Positions 478-7,035 of a stretch of 7,884 bases of DNA are shown piece by piece. The stretch lies in the NCBI GenBank assembly GCA_002395925.1, contig DGVM01000218.1, positions 1-7,884 of the forward strand, given 5' to 3'. A program made the translations under genes and the position numbers. The notes beneath the pieces were generated by a model. The model did no database searches, had not been told where the DNA came from, and was given only the letters and a program-made list of their open reading frames with translations. Position 1 is the first letter of the stretch, and every line of letters begins with the position of its first letter. This stretch comes from Bacteroidales bacterium UBA4284 (GTDB lineage: Bacteria; Bacteroidota; Bacteroidia; Bacteroidales; UBA932).

Positions 478-1632
478 ATGAAGATTCTTATTATTGACGA
501 TGAGCGGAGCATCCGCAATTCGCTCGGTGAAATCCTTTCCGACGAAGGTTACACTGTAGATACCGCAGAGAGCGGCGCAGAAGGCCTCCGGCTTGCGGGC
601 GCGACGCATTACGACATAATTTTTTGCGACATCAAGATGCCCGGCGGGCTCGACGGAATCGAAGTCCTGGGCAAACTCACCGAAGAAGGCACCGACAGCG
701 CAATAGTCATGATCTCCGGCCACGGCGACATCGACACCGCTGTTGAATGTATCAAGAAAGGCGCCTTCGACTTCATCCAGAAGCCGCTGGACCTCAACCG
801 CATCCTCATCACAGTCAAGAACGCCACCGAAAAGTCAAAGCTCGTCACCCAGACCCGCATCCTCAAGAAAAAAGCATACGGGGCCGACCGCATGGTGGGA
901 GAATCGGCGGCGATTACCCGCGTACGCGAGATTATAGAAAAGGTGGCGCCAACTCCCGCCCGCGTGCTCATCACGGGCGGCAACGGTTCCGGCAAGGAAC
1001 TGGTGGCAAGGAGCCTGCACGCACTGAGCGACCGCGCCGGCCAGCCGTATGTGGAGGTCAACTGCGCCGCCATACCGTCGGAACTCATAGAAAGCGAACT
1101 TTTCGGCCACGAGAAGGGCTCGTTCACATCTGCCATCAAGCAGCACAAAGGCAAGTTCGAGCAGGCGGACGGCGGAACCCTCTTCCTGGACGAGATAGGC
1201 GACATGTCCCTGGCAGCCCAGGCCAAGGTGCTCCGCGTACTGCAGGAGAACAAGCTCTCGCGCGTGGGCAGCGACACCGACATAAAAGTTGATGTGCGAG
1301 TGCTTGCCGCCACCAACAAAGACCTCCGTTCAGAGATAGAGAAGGGCAATTTCCGAGAAGACCTGTATCACCGGCTGAGCGTTATAGTCATCAAGGTGCC
1401 CAGTCTGGACGAGCGTAAGGAGGATATCCCCCTGCTGGTTGACTATTTCGTCGACAAGCTGTGTACGGAGACCGCAATGCCCCGCAAGACCTTCAGCCCT
1501 GAGGCTGTCCGGCTGCTGCAGGAACGCAGCTGGAAAGGCAACATACGCGAGCTGCACAACGTGGTTGAGCGCCTCCTCATCCTTGGAGACGCCGTCATTA
1601 CTCCGGAAAACGTAAGGGATTACGTATTATAG
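478..1632 (+). CDS. NtrC/NtrX-like response regulator: receiver plus AAA+ domain, no DNA-binding domain
   Basis: A 384-residue cytoplasmic response regulator. Receiver domain about 1-120: acidic pair Asp7/Asp8, phosphoacceptor Asp51 (in FCDIKMP), Ser80 and Lys102. AAA+ domain about 140-370: Walker A GGNGSGKE (167-174), Walker B TLFLDE (234-239), sensor I ATNKDL (278-283), arginine-finger region FREDLYHRL (292-300) and the lid motif WKGNIRELHN (352-361). Two features are odd. The loop that contacts sigma-54 in this family, normally GAFTGA, reads GSFTSA (214-219), which I recall from related Bacteroidetes proteins. The protein also ends just after the lid, so the Fis-type helix-turn-helix is absent. 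The following DNA encodes the opposite gene, so a simple frameshift does not explain the loss. Its likely partner is the histidine kinase at 2581-6030. Domain calls are firm; the target and whether it acts through sigma-54 are unknown. Confidence 0.93.
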   Translation: MKILIIDDERSIRNSLGEILSDEGYTVDTAESGAEGLRLAGATHYDIIFCDIKMPGGLDGIEVLGKLTEEGTDSAIVMISGHGDIDTAVECIKKGAFDFIQKPLDLNRILITVKNATEKSKLVTQTRILKKKAYGADRMVGESAAITRVREIIEKVAPTPARVLITGGNGSGKELVARSLHALSDRAGQPYVEVNCAAIPSELIESELFGHEKGSFTSAIKQHKGKFEQADGGTLFLDEIGDMSLAAQAKVLRVLQENKLSRVGSDTDIKVDVRVLAATNKDLRSEIEKGNFREDLYHRLSVIVIKVPSLDERKEDIPLLVDYFVDKLCTETAMPRKTFSPEAVRLLQERSWKGNIRELHNVVERLLILGDAVITPENVRDYVL

Positions 1633-2064
1633 ACGTTCTATCTTGAGCTGCTGGATTTTATAGCTTCCGTTCTTGCAGCTCATAAAAAACGTAACGCTGA
1701 AAGCCTCCCCTCCTGCGACCAGCGTGCCGAGGGCGTATTTCATGTTCGCCCGCCCCGTGGTATGCGTGATGCTGAAGCTGCGGGGGGCATAGGTATCGAA
1801 GAATGCCTTCACTATCTGGCGGGCCTGGGCGCGGCTTGCGTCGCTCTCGCTGGCAAGCACTGCGATTTCGAGGTTGTCGGCGAACCAGGCGGACAGAGCC
1901 TCTGCATTGCCGGCTGCAAAATACTTGCATACCGGCACGAAAACATCGTCGGAGCCGTCGGGCTGTGGCGAGGAAATGAGATTCTTTACGAGGTCCTGTG
2001 CCAGGACCGCCGGCCCGGGCAGGAGGAGTGCAAGAGCGAGTAACGCTATTCTCAGATGCTTCAT
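1627..2064 (-). CDS. Exported DUF4783-family protein (NTF2-like fold)
   Basis: A 145-residue protein with a clear Sec signal peptide: basic Lys2, His3 and Arg5, a hydrophobic core at about 6-21, and a likely cleavage after Ala22 (VLA then Gln23). It is therefore probably periplasmic. The remaining ~123 residues resemble DUF4783 of Bacteroidetes, a small domain of the NTF2-like type. Recognisable parts are an N-terminal helix with KYFAAGNAEALSAWF, a mid-region QIVKAFFDTYAP and C-terminal strands ending in YKIQQLKIERL. No catalytic function is established and none is proposed. The start at 2062-2064 is chosen because the signal peptide begins there. Its stop overlaps the end of the regulator by 6 bp tail to tail, and it diverges from rlmH over 53 bp. 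I recall DUF4783 genes lying beside rlmH in other Bacteroidetes, which supports the assignment. Confidence 0.82.
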   Translation of the reverse strand: MKHLRIALLALALLLPGPAVLAQDLVKNLISSPQPDGSDDVFVPVCKYFAAGNAEALSAWFADNLEIAVLASESDASRAQARQIVKAFFDTYAPRSFSITHTTGRANMKYALGTLVAGGEAFSVTFFMSCKNGSYKIQQLKIERL

Positions 2065-2079
2065 ACCGAAAGCGTTTGC

Positions 2080-2111
2080 GTTGCAAATATCAAGCCAGTT
2101 TATTACATTTG
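2080..2111 (+). promoter_or_regulatory. rlmH (and histidine kinase) promoter, Bacteroidetes type
   Basis: TACATTTG at 2104-2111 is an exact TAnnTTTG match and is identical to the cmk element. A GTTG at 2080-2083 lies 20 bp upstream, the expected spacing for the -33 element. Six bases separate the -7 element from the rlmH ATG, the same geometry as at cmk. A leaderless or near-leaderless start is therefore likely. Because the kinase gene overlaps rlmH, this promoter probably serves both. Confidence 0.65.
2084..2091 (-). promoter_or_regulatory. Probable -7 element for the DUF4783 gene
   Basis: On the minus strand this reads GATATTTG, five of six fixed positions of TAnnTTTG and identical to the element before the response regulator. 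It lies 19 bp from the ATG at 2064, giving a short leader of roughly 10-15 nt. No convincing -33 element is seen. It sits between the -33 and -7 elements proposed for the divergent rlmH promoter. Confidence 0.4.
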
Positions 2112-2117
2112 CACATC

Positions 2118-2588
2118 ATGAAGATCACGCTCCTCACAATGGGCAAGACCGATATCCCCTGGGTGGCCGACGGCTTGAAGATGTACAGCCGCCGCCTGGA
2201 GCACTATGCGCCTTTTTCTGTAAAGGAACTGCCTGAGCTGAAGGGCGTTTCGGCTCTGTCTGCCGAGCAGGTAAAGGCCCGGGAAGGAGCGCAGCTGCTC
2301 GGTGCCGTCAAGCCCTCGGATACCGTAATCCTGCTCGACGAGCATGGCTCCGAGTTCACATCCCTGCAGTTCGCTTCCCAGTTGCAGAAGTATCTCAACG
2401 CCGGGCGCGATTTGGTCTTCATCATAGGTGGAGCCTATGGCTTCAGTCCCGAGGTGTACGGCCGCTCCGACGCCAAATTGTCCCTTTCCCGCATGACATG
2501 TTCCCATCAGCTTGTGAGAACGGTTTTTGCAGAGCAACTTTACCGTGCCTTCACGATACTTCGCGGAGAGCCCTACCACAATGAGTAA
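2118..2588 (+). CDS. rlmH: 23S rRNA (pseudouridine1915-N3)-methyltransferase RlmH
   Basis: A SPOUT-class methyltransferase that uses S-adenosylmethionine to methylate pseudouridine 1915 in helix 69 of 23S rRNA, acting on assembled 70S ribosomes. The 156-residue product has the normal family length. It shows the typical start MKITLLTMGKT, the segment VILLDEHGSEFTS, the SAM-binding knot IIGGAYGF (102-109), and the conserved C-terminal stretch SLSRMTCSHQLVRTVFAEQL followed by YRAF and the closing GEPYHNE. The start at 2118 was chosen over an in-frame ATG at 1998 because homology begins here and the promoter element ends 6 nt before it. Its last 8 bases (ATGAGTAA) are shared with the start of the histidine kinase gene, so the two are probably translationally coupled. 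Recognition is secure. Confidence 0.97.
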   Translation: MKITLLTMGKTDIPWVADGLKMYSRRLEHYAPFSVKELPELKGVSALSAEQVKAREGAQLLGAVKPSDTVILLDEHGSEFTSLQFASQLQKYLNAGRDLVFIIGGAYGFSPEVYGRSDAKLSLSRMTCSHQLVRTVFAEQLYRAFTILRGEPYHNE

Positions 2589-5500
2589 GAAGACAATCAA
2601 AAACTATATCGTGCCGGTGCTGGTGGCGTTGAGCGCACTGCTGCTCGTAGTGGCGGTGCTGTCGCCCCGTGCCGTAGGAGATACCCGTTCCGTGGCGTCC
2701 AAGGTCCAGAGGAATCTGGAGCGGCGCATGGAAAAGCTTGACTGGTACGCCGCTCATTCCGACGCCCGGCTGCCCGACGACATGGTCATCTATACCTACA
2801 CCGACGACACCCTGCGTATGTGGAGGGGACAGTTCCCCCTGCTAAACGACGCCATATCGTCGAGGGTGCTGGTGCAGCGTATCGTAAGCCCCAGGGCCAG
2901 CCTCGATTCGCCCCTGGCCTCGGTGGGGGAGTCTCCGTCGTACCTTAACATCGGCCCCAACTGGTACATAGTCAAGGCCTCCGACGACAGCGGCACCCAT
3001 ACGGTCAAGGGTCTGCTGGTCTGCGGCATCTCGGGAGAATTCAATCCCCGCCTGCACATCAATTCCGGATACTCGATACGGCCACTCACGTCCGGTGAGG
3101 GCTATCCGGTGTACCTTGACGACACTCCCGTGTTCAAGGTGCAGTACGATTCGCCCAAGGCTTCGCCGGTGGCCAATCCCCACCTCATGTGGGCGTCCCT
3201 GCTGGTGTTCCTTCTGGCAGCGGTGCAGTTCGTCTTCCTGCGCCGGACGCTCAGGCGGGCTCTTGTTGCCTGTGCATGCTCGCTCGTTGCGATAGGGGCC
3301 ATGTTCATCTGGGGACACGGGGTGCAGCCGCAGGTGGAAATCTTCTCGCCTATGCTTTATGCAGGAGGCGGTTTCCTGTTCTCGCTCGGTGCCGTGCTGC
3401 TGGTAAACCTTGCCATCCTGACCTGCGGGGTGTGCATCTATCTTGCGCGCAAGGACCTTTGGGACCGGGTGGTGAGCCGTCCGCTCGCAGCTGTGATGAC
3501 AGTTGCCGACCTGGCGGCGATAGCCATCATACTGCTGTTTACGCACATTACGTTCCGCAGCGTCATCCTCAATTCCAACATCACACTGGAACTCTATAAG
3601 TTCGGCATCCTGTCCTGGTACACCCTGCTGGTATATGCCTCCGTGCTGTCGATGCTTTCTGTGGTTCCCATGCTGCTGCAGATGCTCCAGCCGGTGTGCT
3701 CGCGCCTGACCGGTCGACATATCAACACGTTCTCCGCTCCCCTGCGTGCGGTTTTTGCCGCTCTGGTTGCGGTGTACGCTGTAACTGCCACGTCCGTTCT
3801 CGGCTTCAAAAAGGAAGAGAACCGGGTCGAGGTATGGGCCGGACGCTTTGCAGTGGACCGCGACATCAACCTCGAACTGCAGCTTCTGCGGGCCGAAGCG
3901 CGCATACTCTCCGACGATGTGATAGCCACACTGTCTGCCTTCGAGGGAACCGACGCCTTCATACGCAGCCGCATCGTGGACAATTATCTTCTGGCGGTCG
4001 CCCAGGACTGTTACATCAGCGTGCAGATACTTCACGGCAGCGGCCAGACCCAGTTGATGGATCGCCTGCATTCCATTATCCGGGAGGGCACTCCCATAGC
4101 GCCGGGCTCTTCTTTCGTGTGTACCCCCACTTCTGAAGGACCTTCCAGGTATTATGGAGTATTCCGTTATTATTCAGGGAATTCCATGTCGGTCATGCTG
4201 CTCTCTCTCGAGCAGAAGGGCACCGAGTCGAAAGGCTATGAGCAACTGCTGTCGCTGTCTTCTTCGTACCGAAGGAACATTTCTCCTATGTATTCGTACG
4301 CCCGTTACCAGGGCAGCGACCTGAAGACCTTCCGCGGCGCGTATCCCTATTCCACGCGAATGGACGACTGGATGAAAATGATGATTTACGTGGACGGCGT
4401 GCGGCACTACAACCGCAACGGCTTCGTGCATTTCGTGAATGTCATCACCGACGACGAAGCGGTCGTCATTTCGCGCCGGCAGACGAGGTTGTTCGGATAT
4501 GTGACTTCCGGCCTCATGGTGGCCCTGATGATGTATTTCATGTTGTGGCTTGTGAAGCCGTGGAAGAAGCGGGAACGAGTAGCGGGCAGGACTTACTTCC
4601 GCTCCAGGATATCGCTTACCCTCATGGTTTCGCTTTTGCTGGCCATGGTGGTGATGGCAGTGGTGAGCGTGACCTTCGTGTACCGCCGCAACGAGGCCAA
4701 CCGGCTCGCGCTCATGTCGGACCGCATCAATTCCATACAGCTGCTTACGCAGAACGGATACCGCAGCATCCAGGGCGCCGACCTGCTGCGTTCCTCCGAA
4801 TTCGCTTCGCTCATCCAGTCCGTAAGCGACAACACCGGCTCCGACATTACCGTATATTCCGTTGACGGCCGCGTCATATTGACCACAAACCCCGAAATGC
4901 TCGATCACATGATACTGGGCTATCGCATCGAAGCCGAAGCCCTGGACGAGATTATGGTGGGCAACAAGCGGTACTGCATACTCAAGCAGGGCAAGGGTAT
5001 GCGGCATTATTACAATATGTATATGCCTCTGATGGGCGCCGACGGCCGTCCTGCGGCGATACTCTGTGCGCCTTATGTGGAACTGGGATACGACTTTGAA
5101 CGCGATGCCGTAATGCACCTCGTGTCCATCCTTACGGTGTTCATCCTGCTGTTCATCATTGCGAGGTTTACCGAATCCGCCGTGCTCGACATGGTGTTCC
5201 GGCCTCTCGACCTGGTAGGAAGCAGCATGCGCCGTGCCGGTCTGGGCTCGATGAAGCATATAAGGTATTCCCGCAAAGACGAGATATCCATGCTGGTCGA
5301 TGCCTACAACCGCATGGTCGATGAACTTTCCGAGAACAGCATCCAGCTGGCACAGGCCGAGCGCGACAAGGCCTGGAGCGGCATGGCGCGTCAGGTGGCT
5401 CACGAGATCAAGAATCCGCTCACTCCCATGAAGCTCCAGATACAGAGGCTGATACGCCTTAAACAGAAGGGCGACCCTTCGTGGCAGGACAAGTTCGACG

Positions 5501-6030
5501 AAGTGAGCAAGGTGCTTCTTGACCATATAGACATCCTTACCGAGACGTCGAACGAATTCTCCACTTTTGCGCGTCTGTATTCCGAGGAGCACACCGAGTT
5601 CAACCTGGACGACCTGCTCAAGGAAGAGATTTCCATGTTCGACAACAGGGATGAGGTGAGATTTGAGTACATAGGCCTGAGCGGCGTGACCGTCAGAGGG
5701 CCTAAGCCTCAGCTTACCAGAGTGTTTGTCAATCTGCTCGGCAATGCAGTGCAGGCGGTGGAAGGACGTGAGGACGCCCGCGTGTTCGTGTCGCTGCGCA
5801 AGTCGGGACGCGACGGATACTACGACATCGTGGTGGAGGACAGCGGTCCCGGCGTTCCTGATGAATATCTCTCGAGGCTGTTCACGCCCAATTTCACCAC
5901 AAAGAACGGCGGCTCAGGCCTCGGGCTTGCCATCAGCCGCAGCATACTCGAAAGTTGCGGGGCGACGATCGCCTACTCCCGCTCCTTCACTCTTGGCGGA
6001 GCTTGCTTCACGGTTACTTATCCCGCTTAG
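2581..6030 (+). CDS. Large multi-pass sensor histidine kinase, NtrY-like
   Basis: An inner-membrane sensor kinase of 1149 residues. By eye there are ten membrane segments: about 10-28, 203-220, 228-246, 259-290, 304-324, 342-369, 389-409, 641-658, 678-701 and 843-864. Basic loops fall on the cytoplasmic side in a consistent topology. Three large extracytoplasmic regions result (29-202, 410-640, 702-842). The last sits directly before the HAMP domain (about 865-925) and may be a PAS/Cache-like sensor. The kinase core follows: HisKA with HEIKNPLTPMKLQIQ (phosphoacceptor His941), N-box NLLGNAVQA (Asn1051, Asn1055), G1 box DSGPG (1087-1091), FTPNF (1101-1105) and G2 box GGSGLGL (1110-1116). The HEIKNPLTP form is typical of NtrY relatives. 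The start at 2581 is preferred over an in-frame ATG at 2527 because the first membrane segment follows closely and the overlap is ATGAGTAA. The probable partner is the regulator at 478-1632. The stimulus is unknown. Confidence 0.93.
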   Translation: MSKKTIKNYIVPVLVALSALLLVVAVLSPRAVGDTRSVASKVQRNLERRMEKLDWYAAHSDARLPDDMVIYTYTDDTLRMWRGQFPLLNDAISSRVLVQRIVSPRASLDSPLASVGESPSYLNIGPNWYIVKASDDSGTHTVKGLLVCGISGEFNPRLHINSGYSIRPLTSGEGYPVYLDDTPVFKVQYDSPKASPVANPHLMWASLLVFLLAAVQFVFLRRTLRRALVACACSLVAIGAMFIWGHGVQPQVEIFSPMLYAGGGFLFSLGAVLLVNLAILTCGVCIYLARKDLWDRVVSRPLAAVMTVADLAAIAIILLFTHITFRSVILNSNITLELYKFGILSWYTLLVYASVLSMLSVVPMLLQMLQPVCSRLTGRHINTFSAPLRAVFAALVAVYAVTATSVLGFKKEENRVEVWAGRFAVDRDINLELQLLRAEARILSDDVIATLSAFEGTDAFIRSRIVDNYLLAVAQDCYISVQILHGSGQTQLMDRLHSIIREGTPIAPGSSFVCTPTSEGPSRYYGVFRYYSGNSMSVMLLSLEQKGTESKGYEQLLSLSSSYRRNISPMYSYARYQGSDLKTFRGAYPYSTRMDDWMKMMIYVDGVRHYNRNGFVHFVNVITDDEAVVISRRQTRLFGYVTSGLMVALMMYFMLWLVKPWKKRERVAGRTYFRSRISLTLMVSLLLAMVVMAVVSVTFVYRRNEANRLALMSDRINSIQLLTQNGYRSIQGADLLRSSEFASLIQSVSDNTGSDITVYSVDGRVILTTNPEMLDHMILGYRIEAEALDEIMVGNKRYCILKQGKGMRHYYNMYMPLMGADGRPAAILCAPYVELGYDFERDAVMHLVSILTVFILLFIIARFTESAVLDMVFRPLDLVGSSMRRAGLGSMKHIRYSRKDEISMLVDAYNRMVDELSENSIQLAQAERDKAWSGMARQVAHEIKNPLTPMKLQIQRLIRLKQKGDPSWQDKFDEVSKVLLDHIDILTETSNEFSTFARLYSEEHTEFNLDDLLKEEISMFDNRDEVRFEYIGLSGVTVRGPKPQLTRVFVNLLGNAVQAVEGREDARVFVSLRKSGRDGYYDIVVEDSGPGVPDEYLSRLFTPNFTTKNGGSGLGLAISRSILESCGATIAYSRSFTLGGACFTVTYPA

Positions 6031-6123
6031 TTTAGATTGATCCAGTTTTGCCCGCCAATAGCCCTTACGGGATCACTTTGTGGTGATTTGATCCCGCGGG
6101 AGGGGAGAGCGAGGAGCGTTCGG
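6031..6123. other. Convergent intergenic gap between kinase and methyltransferase genes
   Basis: Ninety-three bases lie between the two converging stop codons. They contain the hairpin described at 6068-6096, an adjoining perfect 8-bp palindrome CCCGCGGG (6093-6100) and a purine-rich stretch (6098-6118). I see no credible small gene. Confidence 0.7.
6068..6096. terminator. Hairpin between converging genes, possible bidirectional terminator
   Basis: CGGGATCA (6068-6075) and TGATCCCG (6089-6096) form a perfect 8-bp stem with a 13-base loop. A second, mutually exclusive pairing joins ATCAC (72-76 of the 6000s) with GTGAT (6083-6087). Location 38 bases after the kinase stop and 28 bases after the methyltransferase stop suits termination in both directions. 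However, no run of T follows the stem on either strand, so it is not a canonical intrinsic terminator. Confidence 0.4.
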
Positions 6124-7035
6124 CTATGCGTTCTGCCGCTGGCGGACGGCTTCGAAGAGGAGTATGGAAGCGGAGACGGAGACATTCAGAGAATCCAGAC
6201 GGCCCAGCATGGGGATGCGTATGTGGGACGTCGCCGCCTCGCGCCAGGCGTTTGACAGGCCGGTGCTCTCCGTACCCATCACCAGGGCGGTGCCGCGGCG
6301 CATGTCGCAGTCGTAGTACAGGGCTGAGTCCTGAAGCTGGGCCGTGAGTATTTGAATGCCATTGCGTTTGAGCCAGGAGATGGCTTCCGCCGACGTGCAT
6401 GCTACGGTGGGGACGGTAAAGACGGCTCCGATCGAAGCACGGATTACGTTCGGATTGAAGATGTCTGTAAGCGGGTCGCAGACCAGGAGGGCGTCGGCTC
6501 CGGCGGCATCGGCGCTGCGAAGCACCGCTCCCAGGTTACCAGGCTTTTCGACACTCTCAAGCACTGCGATCAGCGGATTGTCTGGAAGCCTTAGGCCCTC
6601 AAGGCTTAGGTGTGGGGTAAATACCTCTGCGATAATACCTTCCGTGCTTTCGCGATAGGCTGTCTTCTCGTAAATCTCCTTGCTTATCTGAAAGAACCGC
6701 ACATTTGCAGGCCAGTCGATAGGGCCGTCAGTTTCATCGCTGAGCTGCGGGAGGCCGGATGGTGTCGGGCGACTTTGAAAATCCGAGCGCAGCGAAGAAT
6801 TTTTGTAGCAGGAGCCAGGCGCCATCCGGCCGGGAGCAGCGTCCGGGATGCCATAAAGCTCGGGACAGAAGAAAACGGAATCTACGCTGTAACCCGCACG
6901 CAGACAGTGAGCGAGCTCCCTCCTCCCCTCGACGACGAAAACGCCGCTCTCGCGCCGCAGGGACGAATCCTTCTGCAGTGCGAGCAGGCGCTTTATCTTG
7001 GGATTCTGTGCGCTGGTCAGCAGTTCAGTTGGCAT
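6124..7035 (-). CDS. SpoU/TrmH-family RNA 2'-O-ribose methyltransferase with an inserted segment
   Basis: A SPOUT-class enzyme that methylates a ribose 2'-OH in rRNA or tRNA using S-adenosylmethionine; the exact nucleotide cannot be told from sequence. The N-terminal substrate-binding domain (about 1-61) has the usual SAQNPKIKRLLAL and VVEGRREL. The C-terminal catalytic knot (about 113-303) carries motif 1 EKPGNLGAVLRSAD (163-176, with Asn167 and Arg173), motif 2 GTESTGL (254-260) and motif 3 IPMLGRLDSLNVSVSAS (274-290). The protein has 303 residues where relatives typically have about 250-265. The excess lies between the domains, around 62-112. Residues 66-98 of it are encoded by the inverted repeat at 6744-6840. 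All catalytic motifs are intact, so the enzyme is probably functional. It starts 7 bp after the lysS stop and is presumably in the same operon. Confidence 0.92.
   Translation of the reverse strand: MPTELLTSAQNPKIKRLLALQKDSSLRRESGVFVVEGRRELAHCLRAGYSVDSVFFCPELYGIPDAAPGRMAPGSCYKNSSLRSDFQSRPTPSGLPQLSDETDGPIDWPANVRFFQISKEIYEKTAYRESTEGIIAEVFTPHLSLEGLRLPDNPLIAVLESVEKPGNLGAVLRSADAAGADALLVCDPLTDIFNPNVIRASIGAVFTVPTVACTSAEAISWLKRNGIQILTAQLQDSALYYDCDMRRGTALVMGTESTGLSNAWREAATSHIRIPMLGRLDSLNVSVSASILLFEAVRQRQNA
6744..6840. repeat. 97-bp nested inverted repeat inside the methyltransferase gene
   Basis: The outer arms GCTGC (6744-6748) and GCAGC (6836-6840) are complementary. After a symmetric GGGA/GGGA internal loop, GGCCGGATGG (6753-6762) pairs perfectly with CCATCCGGCC (6822-6831). 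Further in, GGC (6768-6770) can pair with GCC (6814-6816) and AAAAT (6778-6782) with ATTTT (6799-6803), on nearly the same centre. The segment encodes residues 66-98 of the methyltransferase, where homologues normally have a short linker. Five of its six reading frames have no stop codon. This resembles protein-coding palindromic elements such as those known in Rickettsia, but no sequence relation to those is claimed. No target-site duplication was identified. Confidence 0.72.

Follow-up and report, generated by a model that had tools for sequence, protein, structure and literature searches.

A dispersed palindromic element very probably translated as a disordered loop within the N-terminal domain of an RlmR-like methyltransferase of Bacteroidales

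The window, by which we mean the whole stretch of 7,884 nucleotides that was analysed, carries a TrmH/SpoU-family rRNA 2'-O-methyltransferase gene whose reading frame runs through a palindrome. The nearest solved relative of the enzyme by fold is RlmR of Thermus thermophilus (9h1k), and the top PDB chain by sequence is 4x3l. The protein combines a SpoU fold with an N-terminal substrate-binding domain, and judged from its sequence it is an RlmR-like rRNA methyltransferase, with rRNA as the putative target. Positions 478-6030 hold a response regulator gene, NtrC-like by eye, and the gene of a long sensor kinase (an ORF of 1167 aa), with genes for a DUF4783 protein and an RlmH-like SPOUT methyltransferase sitting between the two. 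Between the sensor kinase and methyltransferase genes, positions 6035-6123 contain a short inverted repeat, GGGATCAC...GTGATTTGATCCC, together with a GAGCGAGGAGCG stretch resembling the tips of the repeats described here. The methyltransferase gene, its insert and the parts of the palindrome, which belongs to a repeat family that we designate family A, are as follows.

6124..7035, minus strand: TrmH/SpoU-family rRNA 2'-O-methyltransferase gene, 303 aa, with PF22435 N-terminal substrate-binding domain and PF00588 SpoU domain
6742..6840, minus strand: in-frame insert peptide, residues 66-98, from the reading frame; predicted disordered
6743..6842, plus strand: complete family-A palindromic element, about 100 bp, borders from comparison with the G001 and G158 copies
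6744..6748, plus strand: left outer arm, 5 bp, pairing with 6836-6840 (GCTGC/GCAGC in the window)
6749..6752, plus strand: GGGA side of a symmetric GGGA/GGGA internal loop, partner 6832-6835
6753..6770, plus strand: main left arm, 18 nt, 17 of 18 positions pairing with 6814-6831, G-T counted (columns 1-18 of alignment A2)
6771..6813, plus strand: conserved core, with GACTTT, inner stem GAAAAT (6777-6782)/ATTTTT (6799-6804), tip, then GTAGC and AGGA; from conserved columns, folds and pair counts
6814..6831, plus strand: main right arm, partner of 6753-6770
6836..6840, plus strand: right outer arm, 5 bp, partner of 6744-6748

A sequence-only reading of this DNA had described an inverted repeat at 6744-6840, and the repeat is real: arms of 27 nt (6744-6770 and 6814-6840) are 74% complementary and include the perfect 10-bp arm that had been picked out (outer ends 6753 and 6831). 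Nowhere in the window was a longer perfect arm found within 100 nt. The palindrome lies in frame over residues 66-98 of the 303 aa, beginning with codon 66 and closing on the first base of codon 98, just where it had been placed. Folded as single-stranded DNA, the segment gave a z-score of only -2.18, with 6 of 200 shuffles equally good. Because the folding energy is only modestly special, the case for the palindrome rests on comparison with relatives. The same low z-score, together with the fact that most of the named sources are metagenome-assembled genomes, would favour a chance palindrome or an assembly artefact of a metagenome bin, and the comparisons below bear on that possibility.

Dispersed copies, which the sequence-only reading had expected, were found in related genomes both by BLAST and with a covariance model. 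With the 97-bp segment as query, six related genomes yielded two full-length copies in G001 (79% and 78%), five partial copies in G003 and no copy in the other four. At E<=0.01, BLAST over genus-level draws (200 genomes) matched 7 and 12 genomes; part of these matches are short and chance-like, and the draws added family-A copies in G158, G258, G300 and others; in a family-level draw, 1 of 149 genomes matched, namely G001 itself. Alignment A2 comprises 17 family-A copies, the window included, and served to build the covariance model R1, which matches the window at 6753-6831 with 90 bits, the window being one of the 17 sequences used to build it. R1 found matches in 7 of the 151 genomes of the genus-level group, including G001, and in 1 of the 198 genomes of an order-level draw. 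This single order-level match was again G001 itself, so that family A looks confined to the genus-level group; over the family- and order-level draws its distribution is patchy. At E<=1e-3, R1 located at least 49 family-A places, a few of them truncated or weak, in seven related genomes chosen as known carriers (G300 11, G158 10, G258 10, G003 8, G001 6, G179 2 and G260 2); these counts are lower bounds, as the scans scored part of the candidates.

Family-A copies fold as one long hairpin. In A2, 93.7% of the cells pair and two-sided changes occur in 18 of 26 pairs, with a covariation of 0.570 compared with 0.179 after shuffling and 0.06-0.14 with the partners slid. A second alignment, A3, of 24 copies outside the training set of R1 and fitted to the structure, gave 89.5% paired cells, two-sided changes in 20 of 26 pairs and a covariation of 0.607 against 0.160 when shuffled; three of its rows (L196, L197 and L202) are without the inner stem, and their membership is doubtful. 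Across the 41 aligned copies, arm sequences vary and complementarity is mostly kept. Exceptions are columns 15-67 and 16-66 of A2, unpaired in 8 and 6 of the 17 copies, the matching pairs of A3 (12 and 13 of 24), and the C-G pair that precedes the inner stem, which is unpaired in 14 of the 24 A3 copies. The core is strongly conserved in A2 (GACTTTG, AAAT facing ATTTT, then GTAG and AGGA) and looser in A3; GTAG, which occupies an internal position, is present in 16/17 A2 copies and 6/24 A3 copies.

The outer arms also vary with compensation, being GCTGC/GCAGC in the window, GCAAC/GTTGC in L198 and GCACC/GGTGC in L199 and L208 of G158. Ends of the approximate form A-GCNNC-GGGA...GGGA-GNNGC-G(T) are common to the window (closing with GT), the five G001 copies in which both ends were seen, and three of the six G158 copies inspected (L199, L205 and L208). 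Two more G158 copies and one G258 copy fit in part, and the G003 and G300 copies compared have different ends. Since these ends are shared by the window, G001 and some G158 copies, the borders drawn from the window alone agree, give or take a few bases, with the element borders of this subgroup. Visual inspection of the flanks of the window, G001, G158 and other copies compared showed no target duplication.

In the AlphaFold2 model, pLDDT falls below 50 at residues 67-101, which correspond to 68-102 of the full-length protein as the modelled sequence was without Met1; the protein around the insert is folded, and the insert forms a loop between helix 57-60 and strand 112-116. The methyltransferase is longer than usual, as had been claimed, because residues 60-112 (53 aa) align with residues 57-68 (12 aa) of 4x3l, a difference of +41 residues. 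The accompanying claim that homologues have only a short linker here holds for 4x3l but not for every close relative, this stretch being hypervariable among them. The insert had also been assigned to a junction between two domains, and this was wrong. Of the 84 positions of PF22435, only 1-49 are matched ahead of the insert, and a strand and a helix of the N-terminal region (E112-116, H118-124) follow it in the model, indicating that the loop belongs to the N-terminal RNA-binding domain. Within that domain the insert probably forms a flexible loop, which would explain why it is tolerated.

Besides the window, five of the 41 aligned copies sit in ORFs with Pfam support.

ThiL (G003, L082): opposite orientation to the gene, Pfam match split
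QueH (G258 L220 and G179 L194): same orientation as the gene, Pfam match split
HI0933-like flavoprotein (G001, L214): same orientation as the gene, Pfam match split
PMT-like protein (G158, L211): same orientation, after the Pfam domain, the ORF continuing for 276 residues

For ThiL, QueH and the HI0933-like protein the Pfam match comes in two or three stretches. A weaker family-A copy lies in an altronate dehydratase gene (L197), in the same orientation as the gene; it was kept out of the in-frame count as a weak model match, and L208 was kept out because its element precedes the likely start. Both orientations are therefore represented, the window and ThiL copies running opposite to their genes and those in QueH, HI0933, PMT and L197 running with them. 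The idea that the elements occur antisense only, as being stop-free, was rejected, since five in-frame copies (weak L197 included) run with the gene. By a cruder measure, the presence of an ORF of 150 aa or more across the element, 5 of the 17 family-A loci in one set and 12 of 28 in a second, overlapping set qualified; among those beyond the loci named, some gave no Pfam support and some precede a likely start, the Pfam search having covered part of the set. The remaining family-A copies are read as intergenic. The arms might have arisen by inverted copying of the native sequence beside them, but a by-eye look at the proteins gave this no support for ThiL. ThiL of G003 (L082:463-1998, minus strand) has a second variable region with short repeated peptides of VTKQ/VTN type in its C-terminal half.

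The methyltransferase loop itself is hypervariable and rich in repeat-like peptides among the 120 listed homologues (257-340 aa). It was parsed in 79 of 81 genes, from 80 loci plus the window, and ranges from 14 to 78 residues; L040 and L065, both with short open loops, were dropped for absence of the anchor motif. Perfect inverted repeats of at least 10 bp occur in 16 of the 79 loops, among them L055, which resembles simple sequence, compared with 1 of 1295 control windows of equal length that overlap one another and come from downstream parts of the same genes. Among loops of at least 49 residues, 12 of 13 contain such a repeat. Over the 80 loci entire (1.35 Mb), 71 perfect inverted repeats of at least 14 bp were counted, and random sequences of equal dinucleotide make-up held none of that length. 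The excess of perfect arms in the loops over these overlapping controls argues against chance, and a family with covarying arms in several genomes from at least two named projects (those of G001 and G003) argues against both chance and an assembly artefact, an explanation that we regard as extremely improbable. In L055 (L055:10171-10231), a methyltransferase loop of another genome, the simple-sequence inverted repeat is AAGAGTGAAGAGTGAAGA.

The palindromes in these loops are of several kinds. Profiles of the repeat families, built in part from the window and from the loop copies in G001 and G005, were run over the 79 loops. They place family A in the window alone, apart from a marginal match to L008 (10.5 bits, E 0.0038); loops L001-L005 contain a second family, designated family B. 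Family B is on opposed strands in L001/L002 and in L003/L004/L005, which implies at least two entries into the loop, or an inversion. Loops L008, L011, L014, L015, L034 and L050 contain other motifs, which we take to be repeats widespread in Bacteroidota, and L029, L030, L059, L072 and L078 have hairpins of their own. On comparison of these loop sequences, the methyltransferase loop is a recurrent landing site for several unrelated palindromes. Of the insert-free forms that the sequence-only reading had proposed to look for, relatives show loops down to 14-15 aa, and P0004 has 260 aa in all. The nearest protein, P0001 (90% identity), carries the insert, and no very close insert-free allele was seen. 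A single-copy segment encoding a conserved linker peptide without conserved palindromic DNA, the pattern that would speak against an inserted element, was not what we found, as dispersed copies exist and the loop peptide varies.

Family B (L161-L190) is palindromic, with a conserved core and variable outer arms, and has a higher copy number (up to 32 matches per genome). It is dispersed, with 32, 17, 4, 22, 16 and 4 matches in G001-G006, 95 in total. At the best 30 of these 95 loci by score, which are not a fair sample, 14 were read as in-frame insertions in conserved genes. Nine kinds of gene are represented, encoding the methyltransferase (three loci), TilS, RibF, AroE-AroK, RsmE, two kinds of radical-SAM protein, a nucleotidyl transferase and an EamA transporter. 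Two of the inserts, those of L163 and L188, follow the Pfam domain, and some of the in-frame loci are orthologous pairs in G004 and G005. In the AroE-AroK fusion gene with a family-B insert (L180 and L189; G004 and G005), the outer 12-bp arms differ and stay complementary.

The reading that we prefer, and consider very probable, is that a dispersed non-coding family-A element of about 100 bp inserted in the N-terminal-domain loop of the RlmR-like methyltransferase and is read through as a disordered loop. The element would have entered between helix 57-60 and strand 112-116. It would be translated straight through, because the window copy is stop-free in the frame used and the frame is kept, adding about 33 disordered residues and leaving the catalytic domain intact. 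We infer that the methyltransferase with its insert still works, and that family A is selfish, surviving where a protein tolerates the insert; it would have moved by transposition, probably as a folded single strand.

The conserved mismatched core and covarying stems are also typical of a functional RNA, and the hairpin might accordingly be an RNA or DNA regulatory structure selected in the methyltransferase gene, acting for example on translation or mRNA decay, rather than an inserted repeat. Under that explanation, the presence of the element between genes and in genes of unrelated kinds, with either orientation relative to the gene, would be unexpected, as would orthologous loops with unrelated palindromes or none. 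Rfam, moreover, gave no family above its curated cut-off on the element; of four Rfam matches listed, one is a TPP riboswitch in L082 and three fall below the cut-off, one of these three being a weak match to a miRNA model that overlaps the L086 copy (27.2 bits against a cut-off of 98). We consider a regulatory role of this kind very improbable.

Hairpin 'byp' elements of yeast mitochondria undergo translational bypassing. The inserts studied here could likewise be skipped, by bypassing or by removal at the RNA or protein level, a suggestion in keeping with in-frame hairpins in housekeeping genes and with an insert to which AlphaFold2 gives no structure. Against it, all 79 parsed loops are in open frame (the parsing sought open frames), which would be needless under bypassing, and we judge skipping to be slightly less credible still than regulation.

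As to how the preferred element would move, the sequence-only reading had proposed a small mobile palindromic element, perhaps REP- or MITE-like. The dispersed copies support a small mobile palindrome, and neither a RAYT-mobilised REP nor a classical MITE is borne out. RAYT-like matches (REP-associated tyrosine transposases) occur in 11 of 11 genomes searched, as ORFs of 284-354 aa, some with an internal stop, and several of these genes are flanked by hairpin repeats of their own. One family-A copy lies about 350-370 bp downstream of a RAYT-like gene in G003. These observations would fit family A as a REP or REPIN moved by a RAYT. At the same time, 40 RAYT-like loci (33 distinct genes) scanned with R1 in flanks to about 1.5 kb gave one clear family-A copy and one weak match. 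The RAYT near L087 was considered as the cognate transposase and rejected because its orthologues are flanked by other repeats: those in G300 and G158, both carriers of family A, have TGGCGCAGGTC-type repeats in their flanks and no family A. The GTAG of family A is internal rather than terminal, differing also in frequency between A2 and A3 as given above. We therefore hold mobilisation by a RAYT to be rather unlikely, though well ahead of the regulatory and skipping explanations. The L087 ORF belongs with L131-L134 and its relatives (51-55% identity) to a divergent RAYT-like family that has its own flanking repeats, mostly of TGGCGCAGGTC/GACCTGCGCCA type, and is barely detected by Pfam Y1_Tnp (E 0.028).

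Compared with defined repeat classes, family A lacks the terminal GTAG tag next to a short stem-loop of GTAG-type REPs, its GTAG being in an internal loop, and at the 40 RAYT-like loci scanned, the one clear and one weak match apart, its copies do not flank a RAYT gene in the manner of GTAG-type REPs or REPINs. CGTC-type REPs are defined by a terminal CGTC tag with an 8-9 bp stem (PMC3733652), and family A ends instead in A-GCNNC...GNNGC-GT. Terminal inverted repeats, as in MITEs, are present in the form of the 5-bp outer arms, compensated in G001 and some G158 copies, and no target site duplication accompanies them in flanks viewed by eye. Like MITEs, family A is about 100 bp long, non-coding and dispersed with inverted ends; it differs in that these ends are only 5 bp. 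It resembles REPINs in being a small non-autonomous hairpin in genomes with REP-associated transposases, except that other repeats flank the RAYT-like genes studied, save for one with a family-A copy close by.

In-frame palindromic elements are as a phenomenon already known. They are described as best known from Rickettsia, with scattered cases elsewhere (PMC3733652), and Rickettsia palindromic elements (RPE) insert in frame in protein genes (PMC3733652, PMC6649704). Family A is RPE-like in being a dispersed palindromic repeat (at least 49 places in seven related genomes, with covariation) and in having in-frame copies in unrelated conserved genes, a likeness by description in these sources. 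It belongs to another phylum, and RPE copies are described as losing repeat identity with time (PMC6649704), whereas family-A arms are divergent yet mostly complementary; in Bacteroidales, furthermore, several unrelated palindromes have entered a single loop. Di Nocera et al. 2013 described GTAG- and CGTC-tagged REPs, including intragenic ones in housekeeping genes that they proposed to be neutral in flexible linkers or loops, CGTC repeats from Bacteroidetes, and some REP families within longer palindromes (PMC3733652). Family A shares with the intragenic REPs its position within housekeeping ORFs, but where those are tagged stem-loops of 20-40 bp (PMC3733652), it spans about 100 bp, its main arms being long and variable and its core mismatched. 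It is, moreover, without a terminal tag, and a cognate RAYT was not found among the 40 RAYT-like loci. Palindromes in coding sequences of Nematomorpha mitochondria likewise have long complementary arms, for which template switching is discussed as a cause; there, however, both arms encode conserved amino acids, whereas the arms of family A encode a variable loop, and the accessible part of that source does not describe them as copies of one dispersed element with a common core (PMC6649704). We recognised no published report of families A and B in the literature searched, which was covered mainly through abstracts and extended to few subscription journals. Within it, the families, their architecture, the host group and the repeated use of one loop look new.

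In this gut Bacteroidales group, at least two dispersed palindromic families thus stand in frame in housekeeping genes, and comparison of species could address both the origin of new protein loops from selfish DNA and how drifting palindrome arms remain complementary. Annotators should bear in mind that a variable loop or a repeat-like peptide in proteins of this kind may be a DNA element. That the arms vary from copy to copy and still pair suggests recognition by shape, and the element may be recognised as a folded strand, its arms renewed by template switching or by selection. We offer, tentatively and with more doubt than conviction, a wider scheme in which a mobile element is recognised by its shape and not by its arm sequence. 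Only the mismatched core would be kept, and the long arms could change freely while they pair, whether by template switching or because selection acts on the folded strand. In this scheme several families of the Bacteroidales group would repeatedly enter the same housekeeping-enzyme loops, steadily supplying new loops. The data from orthologous sites are mixed: four pairs of copies gave 6 compensated, 7 one-sided and 10 broken arm changes, and the broken pairs indicate that arms decay in place too. The AroE-AroK pair, with 4 compensated, 4 one-sided and 2 broken changes, is the only one favouring co-evolution. One family-A copy (L216:1501-1603) has an internally duplicated tip, suggesting slippage or template switching within the hairpin.
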